DNA of 64,000 nt, taken from Artemia franciscana (taxonomy: Eukaryota; Arthropoda; Branchiopoda; Anostraca; Artemiidae). Position numbers and translations under genes: made by a program. The DNA lies in assembly GCF_032884065.1 (NCBI RefSeq), contig NC_088871.1:20906755-20970754 (forward strand), written 5' to 3'. Every line of letters starts with the position of its first letter. Position 1 is the first letter of the stretch. Shown one piece after another: positions 32,126 to 54,040 of the stretch. The notes beneath the pieces were generated by a model that was not told the DNA's origin, did not search any database, and saw only the letters and a program-made list of their open reading frames with translations.

Positions 32126-32320
32126 CATGTGGAACTGTTATTGACAGTGCATCTCCTGGTCAATGTTTTCGAACCCTCGAAGGTCGTCAAGTCTGCTCCC
32201 TTTCTGGCGCTTCTTACAATTTCTGGGAGTTAGAAAATTCAGGAAGTCCTGGCTGGATAGCTTCTGAATACCTAGATCCAGCTGATGGTTATGACAAAGC
32301 TGCTGGAAGAGTTCCGGGAG
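32126..32320 (+). CDS. GHL10 gene exon A: SH3b-like module
   Basis: The acceptor TCTTTAAG precedes it and the donor GGGAG|GTATTC follows. It starts in phase 2 (CA completes a codon), so at least one earlier exon exists. The translation begins CGTVIDSASPGQCF and ends in GWIASEYLDPADGYDK. The GWI-S-YL ending is typical of bacterial SH3 domains, which often bind cell-wall peptides. Three cysteines are present. The SH3b assignment is moderate. Confidence 0.75.
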
Positions 32321-53300: not shown

Positions 53301-54040
53301 ACACTAGTCCAAAATCGAGTAGACTAAATATCATTAAGAATAATTTTGACCTTAAACTCACATAGCTATGTCTTTGACATAAACATTCAAGCTGGTTGAA
53401 ATAGTTCCGTCGTCAGTTGAACCAACCAATGCCCGGAAAAAAACATGCTCGGAGTAATATCTTCAAGTGATTCAGAGTTTTTGGCACATTTTCGGTAGTA
53501 TCGAAATCTTTTTTGTTTGTCGGGGGATGGGTTGGAAATTCGGCATACCTCCCGAAAAATCGACCGATTGGAAGTCCTGATCTTAAATAAAAGTGGAGCT
53601 TAATATTGTTAGCTTCTCGTTCTCGCTCCAACTCTTCTCCCCAGACATCTGGGTGGTAAAGAGATAGGGTGAAAATGAATGGTAATCCAGGGGATGAGTG
53701 GTAACTGTATAACTAAATAATAATTGCCGGTTTGCATTGGTTTGTATGCTGACTACGTAAGGAACGTAGGCTAATCCTATTTCTAAGAAACTTAAACTTC
53801 AAAAAATTATCATTTACCGGAAAATTAATTGGATAATTCAACACAGGACAAATATTTATTACGGTTTTCTATTCTTTGGTTGATTTTAAGCTCTTTTTTT
53901 AGGTTGATGTTACAAGAGGCTATGCACAAAGAAACGGGGCAGGCAACGTTCACTACAGCGCGAAGTTCATACGAGACAATACAAATGGAATCACAACTCA
54001 ACTTAAAGCCATATACAAAAATCCAGTTCCACCCTATTAA
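32126..54040 (+). CDS. Spliced GHL10 (DUF187) glycoside-hydrolase-like protein with SH3b-like N-terminal module, 5' incomplete
   Basis: Eight exons (32126-32320, 36826-36992, 37582-37725, 43679-43866, 44972-45153, 48962-49086, 51391-51579, 53903-54040) join in consistent phase. They give 441 residues and a TAA stop, all with GT/AG borders. Residues about 1-65 look like a bacterial-type SH3 module ending GWIASEYL. The rest matches GHL10 from end to end: FRGAFIATVSNIDWPS, DAFYNSLIEPWS, HAWLNPYRAN, the signature VDGIHFDDYFYPYPS, ISPFGIYRPGH, DFIAPQLYWGI, and NTNGITTQLK. The family is mostly bacterial; E. coli DigH cleaves denuded peptidoglycan glycans. Cysteines cluster in the N-terminal half, suggesting a secreted protein. 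No start codon or signal peptide is assigned. Introns hold LINE, hAT and R1 insertions. Substrate in this animal is unknown. Confidence 0.9.
32880..34500 (+). pseudogene. LINE reverse transcriptase remnant in GHL10 intron
   Basis: Pieces in order: a linker like LAEHFVNVLNRDRV near 32970, an RT core start ECGNYQDISLVSVGSKLL near 33280, then FLDYEQVFDSVDRRAL at 33490, and RIKSGVKQGCVL near 33655. GLKINVKKTKSLRLG follows near 33850, TVVKYGSEAW near 34130, and KERLRWLGHVLWMKDD near 34310. Stops and frameshifts separate the pieces. Order and residues match the RT remnant at 8-9 kb. The family is probably RTE/BovB-like. It lies in sense orientation in the intron between exons A and B. Confidence 0.85.
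35042..36712 (+). repeat. R1 repeat, long copy 4, in GHL10 intron
   Basis: It starts TATCAAACAG with the perfect terminal hairpin (35048-35067), identical to copy 1, and follows it through both palindromic modules. The left arm of the long right-hand inverted repeat is shortened here (near 36444-36530). The right arm ends near 36712, only about 110 bp before exon B. Confidence 0.87.
36826..36992 (+). CDS. GHL10 gene exon B: first barrel strand
   Basis: The acceptor CATCCTAG and donor CAA|GTAAGC are good. The split codon G|AG joins it to exon A. It encodes ESIEPPAEFRGAFIATVSN, IDWPSS and MNAILLQ, the start of the GHL10 domain (family pattern: EFRGVWIATV-NIDWP). Confidence 0.92.
37582..37725 (+). 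CDS. GHL10 gene exon C
   Basis: Phase 0 at both ends (TCTATAG|GTTCGT and ATCGAG|GTAAGT), 48 codons. It encodes VRTSGDAFYNSLIEPWSRYL, WDPLEW and EAHSKGIE, which is the family's second and third barrel strands. Confidence 0.93.
37810..39250 (+). pseudogene. LINE reverse transcriptase remnant (second family) in GHL10 intron
   Basis: A 187-codon frame (37814-38377) contains ISPILKKNKSKSSCSSYRPV, AKIFELLI, VGLGCFHAL and AYDVMNAF, the first RT blocks. Further pieces follow in other frames: VLCYADDLLNP near 38525, the catalytic YADD box; then LGLPTESSIKNTG near 38740, and the C-terminal PHILYSTPFWGTF near 38900. About five breaks are visible. SYRPVTASRV and the microsatellite tail suggest a CR1, L2 or Jockey-like LINE. 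The 5' part is absent, as usual for truncated insertions. Confidence 0.87.
39251..39275 (+). repeat. (ATTC)n tail of the LINE
   Basis: AATAAAGAAC passes into several ATTC units, the kind of 3' tail carried by CR1/L2-type LINEs. Confidence 0.75.
39311..39893 (+). repeat. R1 repeat, internally deleted copy 5, in GHL10 intron
   Basis: It begins ATCAAACAG with a hairpin CAGCTCGT-GGTG-ACGAGCTG (39317-39336). Compared with copies 1 and 4, one stem pair is changed on both sides, so pairing is kept. Sequence then jumps near 39655 to the right-hand inverted-repeat region, removing about 1.1 kb. A short TTTGACT-type duplication marks the junction. Confidence 0.85.
39894..41110. other. Intronic sequence without recognised features
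   Basis: AT-rich sequence within the intron between exons C and D. Long G-tracts lie at about 40161-40176 and 40531-40539. No frame with a domain is seen. Confidence 0.5.
41110..42910 (+). repeat. Decayed tandem repeat in GHL10 intron
   Basis: Loosely similar units recur about every 170-250 bp. Shared pieces include TCTCAG(C)CAAACTC, AAGTAAGAGC or AAGTTAGAGC, GTCCTAG or GCCCTAGT, TACCTGAT, and GGGGAGAGGG. Units are strongly diverged and boundaries cannot be fixed by eye. No gene is seen in it. Confidence 0.5.
43679..43866 (+). CDS. GHL10 gene exon D
   Basis: It starts in phase 0 after ATTATAG and ends in phase 2 (CAA AG|GTAAAT). It encodes VHAWLNPYRAN, YLWMDPGAPEV and INVISDILQ. The preceding intron is about 5.95 kb and is filled by a LINE, an R1 copy and a decayed tandem repeat. 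Confidence 0.92.
44372..44430 (+). repeat. Short tandem duplication with inner palindrome
   Basis: Two copies of GCATACCATATCTTAGATAT lie back to back. Each contains the palindrome-like CATATCTTAGATATG. Confidence 0.7.
44972..45153 (+). CDS. GHL10 gene exon E: active-site signature
   Basis: It starts after CCTGTAG with one base completing Arg and ends CCA G|GTAATT. It carries the most conserved family segment, YEVDGIHFDDYFYPYPSSEE, then MARDDWRRDNVN. The paired acidic residues of HFDDY are the likely catalytic or substrate-contact positions; that is inference from conservation. Confidence 0.95.
45213..45476 (+). repeat. 135-bp tandem duplication in GHL10 intron
   Basis: Two copies starting TAGCATGTA at 45213 and 45348 share TAGATCTCGAGATATCTA and GCACAGCTCTGTCATAAGCC. 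Identity is high, with a handful of substitutions, so it is a moderately recent duplication 60 bp after exon E. Confidence 0.85.
46380..47690 (-). pseudogene. hAT-C transposase remnant, minus strand, in GHL10 intron
   Basis: On the minus strand a 150-codon frame (47688-47236) reads LRGQGYEGASSVSGQVQGCA, HAVYFHCLSHSLNLAL and NTFSETRWMEHL. This is the central region of DUF4371/ZMYM1-like hAT transposases. Further pieces continue in other frames down to a C-terminus like ERLNGLALL-IHRD near 46480. Breaks are numerous. No assured termini were found; CAGTGTTGCCACG at 45919 is hAT-like but unmatched. A second copy of the C-terminal part lies at 59940-60200. Confidence 0.85.
48100..48180. repeat. 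Possible end region of the hAT-C family
   Basis: TAAATTTCGGGGGGATGTATCCCCC resembles the sequence TAAATTTCGGAGGGGGATAAA at 59869-59889, next to the other copy. It may be a terminal segment of the family, but no target duplication was found. Confidence 0.3.
48962..49086 (+). CDS. GHL10 gene exon F
   Basis: The acceptor GCTTTAG and two bases complete GAT; the donor is CTG|GTAAAT. It encodes AKFSISPFGIYRPGHPEGM and YADAKAWLL, matching the family's ISPFGIWRPGHP and YAD-KWL motifs. Confidence 0.93.
51391..51579 (+). CDS. GHL10 gene exon G
   Basis: Phase 0 at both ends (TTTTCAAG|GACGGG and ATGCAG|GTAGAT), 63 codons. It encodes DGLVDFIAPQLYWGINPASQ, DWWTSSV and GATGLYKV, the later barrel strands. 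Confidence 0.93.
51985..52678 (+). repeat. Identical 341-bp direct duplication around an 11-N gap
   Basis: Bases 51985-52325 and 52338-52678 look identical along their whole length, 353 bp apart, with 11 N at 52326-52336 between them. The first copy ends ACTCT at the gap and the second runs into a long (CT)n tract from the same ACTCT. The simplest reading is one locus assembled twice because the CT tract could not be closed. It lies in the intron between exons G and H, so the protein is not affected. Confidence 0.85.
52326..52336. other. Assembly gap, 11 N
   Basis: Eleven undetermined bases. Such a short run is often a placeholder, not a measured length. Confidence 0.95.
52675..52930 (+). 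repeat. (CT)n microsatellite, about 100 units, passing into (ATCT)n
   Basis: An uninterrupted CT run fills 52675-52876, followed by imperfect ATCT/GTCT units. The Ser-Leu frames across it are artefacts. Confidence 0.97.
53903..54040 (+). CDS. GHL10 gene last exon
   Basis: The acceptor TTTTTTTAG precedes GTTGATGTT. It encodes VDVTRGYAQRNGAGNVHYSA, NTNGITTQLK and a short C-terminus VPPY, then TAA at 54038-54040. Family members end their domain at the same place. Confidence 0.93.
   Translation, partial: VDVTRGYAQRNGAGNVHYSAKFIRDNTNGITTQLKAIYKNPVPPY

Follow-up and report, generated by a model that had tools for sequence, protein, structure and literature searches.

The brine shrimp Artemia franciscana carries an intact nuclear gene, probably working, which encodes a protein of the mostly bacterial GHL10 family (PF02638) and is spread over nine coding exons within a 64-kb window. 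This window, the whole stretch of DNA analysed, lies at 20.9 Mb on one scaffold, contig C9, where it covers 20906755–20970754, and its positions serve as coordinates throughout. We propose, with a probability of about 0.6, that the product is a secreted enzyme cutting the strands of peptidoglycan in digestion or defence, and that the gene was gained from bacteria by an ancestor of several animal phyla. The family domain is nearly complete, most residues of the catalytic pocket described for its closest solved relative are retained, and the animal copies of the gene nest among bacterial ones, adjoining those of cyanobacteria.

Gene Organisation

The gene spans 23822 bases from start to stop codon, with eight introns of 589–5953 bases and a product of 479 residues without an internal stop. 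Its features are listed below; equivalent positions are those of Cwp19 from Clostridioides difficile.

30219–30330, plus strand: coding exon 1; start codon, hydrophobic leader LLITTTFFIYF and start of a putative SH3b-like module; equals residues 1–37 of the deposited protein QYM36_017138
32126–32320, plus strand: coding exon 2; remainder of the putative SH3b-like module and linker; 36.7 bits
36826–36992, plus strand: coding exon 3; start of GHL10 (Pfam match from residue 110, about 36846); 57.6 bits
37582–37725, plus strand: coding exon 4; GHL10; 79.6 bits
43679–43866, plus strand: coding exon 5; GHL10, HAWLNPYR with Trp210 and Arg215 (Cwp19 Trp127, Arg132); 79.7 bits
44972–45153, plus strand: coding exon 6; GHL10, VDGIHFDDYFYP with Asp278-Asp279-Tyr280 (Cwp19 Asp195, Asp196, Tyr197); 97.4 bits
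48962–49086, plus strand: coding exon 7; GHL10, ISPFGIYRPGHP with Ser336 (Cwp19 Ser250); 73.7 bits
51391–51579, plus strand: coding exon 8; GHL10, PQLYW with Gln381 and Tyr383 (Cwp19 Gln295, Tyr297); 66.9 bits
51580–53902, plus strand: intron 8; assembly gap of 11 N at 52326–52336 and (TC)n run at 52676–52875
53903–54040, plus strand: coding exon 9 and stop; domain end, Tyr452-Ser453 (Cwp19 Phe367-Ser368, putative S1 pocket); 31.6 bits

A preliminary description of this DNA had predicted eight exons with GT/AG borders and successive phases of 1, 0, 0, 2, 1, 0 and 0. Rebuilding exons 2–9 bears this out, as each of the seven introns between them starts with GT and ends with AG in those phases, and their translation runs to 441 residues with zero internal stops. 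The exons of that description are correct, but the 441-residue gene with seven introns that it proposed lacks the first coding exon. Exon 1 was located through the leader of QYM36_017138 together with a profile search of the window, and its donor GTAAGT is of phase 1, in agreement with the acceptor at 32126.

The profile was made from 11 relatives, with QYM36_017138 (P0001 in our protein set) left out, and was run against plus-strand open frames of at least 20 residues. Eight exon frames, arranged collinearly, scored between 31.6 and 97.4 bits while the next-best frame reached 1.5 bits, which, together with a Pfam E-value of 3.3e-65 for the product, excludes a chance match. Within the window the same search found no C-terminal extension downstream of 54040. 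A search of the 1.27-Gb assembly with P0001 returned nine matches, namely exons 1–8 of the window gene and a weak one on a second contig, C3 (counts being lower bounds); the gene was found once, on a single scaffold. Third-position guanine-cytosine (GC) content is 0.35 across the 441-residue part.

The deposited protein (446 residues) agrees with exons 1–8 (434 residues), then passes the exon-8 donor and continues for 12 extra residues to a stop (51580–51618). The first three of these coincide with the start of exon 9, so that the identical stretch measures 437. Judged by sequence, exon 9 as first described is the better gene end because its match to the family profile scores 31.6 bits; it also lines up with the final part of the Cwp19 domain, where its Tyr-Ser pair corresponds to Phe367-Ser368, which leaves QYM36_017138 without the domain end. 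Intron 8 contains identical 341-base copies (51985–52325 and 52338–52678) flanking the gap, and this duplication looks like an unmerged assembly overlap. The (TC)n run in the same intron is pure over 200 bases, and in three reading frames it gives long open frames of LSLSLS.

GHL10 Domain and Pocket Residues

By sequence the protein is a GHL10 family member, its 441-residue part matching PF02638 with 220.7 bits (cut-off 27.9) over positions 1–300 of the 311 in the profile. The preliminary description had reported a full GHL10 domain with VDGIHFDDYFYP and ISPFGIYRPGHP intact, and both motifs were placed, starting at 44979 and 48976, respectively. The sole solved relative detected by sequence (E-values up to 0.001) is Cwp19 (PDB 5oq2), at an E-value of 2.6e-85 over residues 58–439 of 441. 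Thus aligned along the whole GHL10 domain, the two proteins share 10 of the 13 pocket residues named for Cwp19 (PDB 5oq2, 5oq3), and Cwp19 Phe367 is replaced by tyrosine (Tyr452) in Artemia. A triosephosphate isomerase (TIM) barrel fold would be expected for the Artemia protein.

Cwp19 is a peptidoglycan lytic transglycosylase that forms some reducing-end products too (PMC6016235). A fragment of it cleaves peptidoglycan at pH 3.9 to 6.6, and Asp196 and Arg132 have been proposed as key pocket residues (PMC5765458). All 174 rows of the alignment used for the trees described below have equivalents of Arg132, Asp195, Asp196 and Tyr197 (Artemia Arg215, Asp278, Asp279 and Tyr280). The two proteins differ in architecture, as Cwp19 bears three C-terminal CWB2 wall-binding repeats (PMC6016235) whereas the Artemia protein has none and instead carries the putative SH3b-like module at its N-terminus.

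The retained residues indicate that the domain is under constraint, as the preliminary description had supposed. Forty-four columns are invariant among 91 bacterial rows (25 of them cyanobacterial) and Artemia keeps 41, compared with the bacterial-majority residue at 193 of 393 well-filled columns (the 44 included), a contrast possibly somewhat flattered by the choice of bacterial rows, which were those that best fitted an animal-led profile. By name, DigH (YddW) of Escherichia coli falls in the same Pfam family, PF02638 being matched in an E. coli control genome, and it is reported to cut denuded glycan strands (PMC12288456).

The N-Terminal Region

No other stretch of 11 residues in the protein is as hydrophobic as the leader, and the protein is probably secreted. 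The leader is followed by a Cys-containing module (residues about 22–95), which aligns with the N-termini of a protein of the annelid Owenia (P0018) and seven metagenome proteins without organism name; the protein is probably disulphide-bonded. Pfam SH3_3 (PF08239) matches three of these nine module sequences weakly, at best with an E-value of 0.046, and Phage_Tail_Tip matches one (Pfam, 0.11). When a profile of the nine sequences was searched against PDB, 13 sequences were returned up to an E-value of 10, headed by 2kt8 (0.0062) and 2kyb (0.034), both of which we take to be bacterial SH3 domains. Further matches were ITK, a eukaryotic SH3 (0.06, 0.076), and the cell wall hydrolase 2kq8 (0.46), while weaker ones include proteins other than SH3, namely Ycf48-like proteins, CDC5 and actinohivin. 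The profile matches hint at an SH3b-like module.

A bacterial origin of the fusion itself was considered when the bacterial locus L024 showed an apparent match beginning at residue 26, and was rejected as its frame, inspected by eye, lacks such a module. No SH3b-like Cys-rich N-terminus occurs among the named bacterial proteins of the filtered set. Elsewhere in the family, P0121 and P0044 possess other Cys-rich N-termini than Artemia, P0121 having two GHL10 domains in one chain. Several different stretches of this kind are seen at the N-termini of animal or animal-like GHL10 proteins (P0121, P0044, P0026 and a second crustacean family treated below). Many animal relatives also have a C-terminal extension of about 100 residues, which Artemia lacks.

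Animal Relatives and Origin of the Gene

Protein searches, with 8000 candidates scored, gave 7135 and 7992 matches under the limit, and the best 120 of each were listed (181 distinct proteins). The tree set took 94 of the 180 proteins other than P0001 (33 animal, 12 named bacterial and 49 without organism name), with the window protein in place of P0001, and added the best 80 of 596 bacterial loci to give 175 rows; one locus (L082) failed the domain step, leaving 174.

Among the matches listed, relatives occur in at least 26 other named animal species and in one copepod (P0121), recognised from its gene-model name, which we assume to be Tigriopus kingsejongensis. They come from molluscs, annelids, springtails, sciarid flies, an ostracod, the copepod and lancelets. 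Entries of animals such as Capitella, Owenia and members of the other groups, named 'glycosyl hydrolase YngK-like' or GHL10-containing, share the domain and fall in neighbouring clades. None of the proteins listed, the best 120 per search, bears the name of a cnidarian, sponge, echinoderm or vertebrate, but most of them are without an organism name, so that absence is not thereby established.

In all three trees built, the animal copies nest among bacterial sequences and adjoin cyanobacteria (Oscillatoria, Phormidium, Microcoleus, Nostocales), which are the nearest bacterial relatives. Fifteen cyanobacterial loci show 42–51% identity over the best segment; unlike the animal gene, each of them holds the domain in one open frame. 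Several of the cyanobacterial GHL10 proteins have an SLH domain (PF00395). The 174-row FastTree joins molluscs, annelids, arthropods and unnamed rows in one group (support 89). In a 99-row tree, annelids, arthropods and unnamed rows make up a clade of 34 rows (98) to which the window protein belongs, and molluscs with six unnamed rows constitute another (96). With other bacteria as outgroup, a 64-row tree unites animals, cyanobacteria and unnamed rows (99/94) and contains an annelid-arthropod clade (99/86), within which Artemia pairs with the copepod (81/83). Two unnamed long-branch rows, P0058 and P0066, stand beside this clade in the 64-row tree and elsewhere in the 174- and 99-row trees.

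The placement beside cyanobacteria upholds the bacterial ancestry claimed in the preliminary description, which had envisaged acquisition by an ancestor. The bacterial source stands, but the gene is specific neither to Artemia nor to crustaceans. A recent transfer confined to either is ruled out by the many animal relatives and the annelid-arthropod clade. Because the window protein sits in that supported clade, near molluscs, lancelets and cyanobacteria, the trees suggest an old acquisition common to many animals. Old vertical inheritance in species order, the pattern by which the preliminary description would have been refuted, is rejected, since forcing together nine arthropod rows (p 0.0188, approximately unbiased (AU) test) or 22 mollusc and annelid rows (p-AU 0.00101) is not accepted; these groups were chosen with a first tree already in view, and unnamed rows were left free.

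Whether the gene entered animals once is less readily settled. Several separate transfers from cyanobacteria-like donors, into lancelets, into molluscs and into the lineage of annelids and arthropods, are a serious possibility, somewhat short of even odds. Lancelets group with cyanobacteria in the 174-row (96) and 99-row (95) trees, in the 64-row tree lancelets, molluscs, cyanobacteria and annelids with arthropods branch in no resolved order, and the rejection of species order points the same way. Yet uniting 61 animal and animal-like rows costs just 4.65 log units and is not rejected (p 0.354), the rows being 34 animal and 27 unnamed ones, the latter assigned after the tree had been seen. If lancelets are excluded, a single branch (support 79, not starred) already separates the animals from all other rows, and old duplication and loss would likewise break species order. 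Given this p-value and the rejected species orders, one old gain with duplications and losses and several gains both remain.

A phage collection offered no hint of a vehicle. Nine of its records, labelled as human-faecal phage (MT836309.1 and others), encode distant GHL10 relatives, the eight listed having 30–41% identity and no annotation. A scan of prokaryote genomes for close relatives of P0001 gave 52 pattern-matching stretches, none of which was a relative.

Proposed Function and Alternatives

In the function preferred here, an ancestor of several animal phyla would have gained the gene from bacteria, the nearest living copies being those of filamentous cyanobacteria, and retention would then have been patchy. 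Once expressed, the protein would be exported from the cell by its leader, and the SH3b-like module may help to hold bacterial wall material. The TIM-barrel pocket around Asp279 and Arg215 would cut the strand of N-acetylmuramic acid and N-acetylglucosamine (MurNAc-GlcNAc) in peptidoglycan, as Cwp19 does. The site of action may be the gut, where bacteria would be digested, or defence. Artemia is a filter feeder.

A number of observations weigh against this proposal. The signal peptide was judged from hydropathy alone, the Artemia N-module has no Pfam match, SH3_3 included, and single module members match PSII_BNR (Pfam, E-value 0.033) and Ycf48 (NCBIfam, 0.0064) at least as well as SH3_3, Ycf48 being the best of three families, with one member each, in the NCBIfam scan. 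Two pocket positions are changed relative to Cwp19, Trp36 to Phe (Phe115) and Gly328 to Ala (Ala415), and the catalytic residues of Cwp19 are a conjecture by its own structure paper (PMC5765458). DogH, another GHL10 enzyme, is reported to be active on starch, releasing maltose (PMC9967864), so that family membership does not fix the substrate. As to origin, the grouping of lancelets with cyanobacteria in two of three trees and the conflict of the animal gene tree with species order count on the same side.

The chief rival, which we regard as unlikely, is that of a secreted digestive glycosidase for a polysaccharide other than peptidoglycan, be it cyanobacterial or algal sheath, starch or another glycan. 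The activity of DogH speaks for it, as do the cyanobacterial identity of the nearest bacterial relatives and the variation among GHL10 proteins in loops thought to set specificity (PMC5765458). However, Cwp19, the nearest relative that has been both solved and tested, acts on peptidoglycan, and while DogH is described as 21% similar to Cwp19 (PMC9967864), the window protein aligns with Cwp19 over nearly its full length at the E-value given above. The SH3b-like module, if real, suits wall binding.

Loss of catalysis, with the protein serving in glycan binding or pattern recognition, appears very improbable. Animals have reused wall hydrolases as recognition proteins, and Phe115 and Ala415 would fit such a change, but these states recur in other animal or unnamed rows of the alignment, the presumed key residues Asp279 and Arg215 are kept, and so are 41 of the 44 bacterial-invariant columns. 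Contamination, a pseudogene or mis-assembly, to which the intron-8 gap with its duplicated flanks and the broken 3' end of QYM36_017138 might be thought to point, is scarcely credible, contamination and a pseudogene being rejected on nine exons that lie on one scaffold with proper splice signals and matching phases, introns of 589–5953 bases and an open frame of 479 codons, to which the third-position GC may be added.

A Second GHL10 Gene and Other Features

A second, distant GHL10 gene, QYM36_011071, was hit on contig C3 in the family search of the assembly and matches GHL10 with an E-value of 2.8e-30. Its coding sequence falls into four or more blocks, which run on the minus strand from 33396098 to 33377849 (loci L002, L003 and L013–L016), and by eye it has no counterpart to the NPYR motif found in the window gene. 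Searching with its joined coding blocks gave seven proteins at E-values up to 1e-10, itself included, of which four are crustacean proteins with 45–50% identity (Halocaridina, Eriocheir, Tigriopus californicus and P0184, presumably T. kingsejongensis) and two are fainter, unnamed relatives (28–32%). These matches suggest that QYM36_011071 represents a distinct GHL10 lineage among crustaceans.

Putting both genes together, a wider scenario may be offered tentatively, as doubtful but conceivable. Animals would own an ancient, undescribed family of secreted enzymes cutting the glycan strands of peptidoglycan, acquired in a single event close to the base of Bilateria, the donor being cyanobacteria-like. 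Annelids and crustaceans would have coupled it to a Cys-rich, SH3b-like wall-binding module, and crustaceans would have gained QYM36_011071 separately, the enzyme family having been captured twice for handling bacteria.

Other parts of the window may hold traces of mobile elements. At 22405–24462, two adjoining open frames that share a reading frame resemble a hAT-type transposase; the second matches the hAT dimerisation region (E-value 2.4e-8) and the first nothing. A YADD-type reverse transcriptase motif (CYADDL) was seen by eye in sequence resembling a long interspersed nuclear element (LINE) at 38512–38560, within intron 4; the open frame immediately upstream (37790–38374) gave no match in Pfam.

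Significance

Animals have borrowed bacterial wall-cutting enzymes, and for GHL10 as one of these no earlier account was found in the literature searched. Judged by titles and the starts of abstracts, no paper there deals with animal GHL10, subscription papers lying mostly outside the search. If active, the protein would represent a further class of animal enzyme, antibacterial or digestive, which occurs in bivalves and lancelets as well as in brine shrimp and for whose assay bacteria supply a clear template. Through shared introns, animal GHL10 may also serve as a marker for dating gene transfer into early animals.

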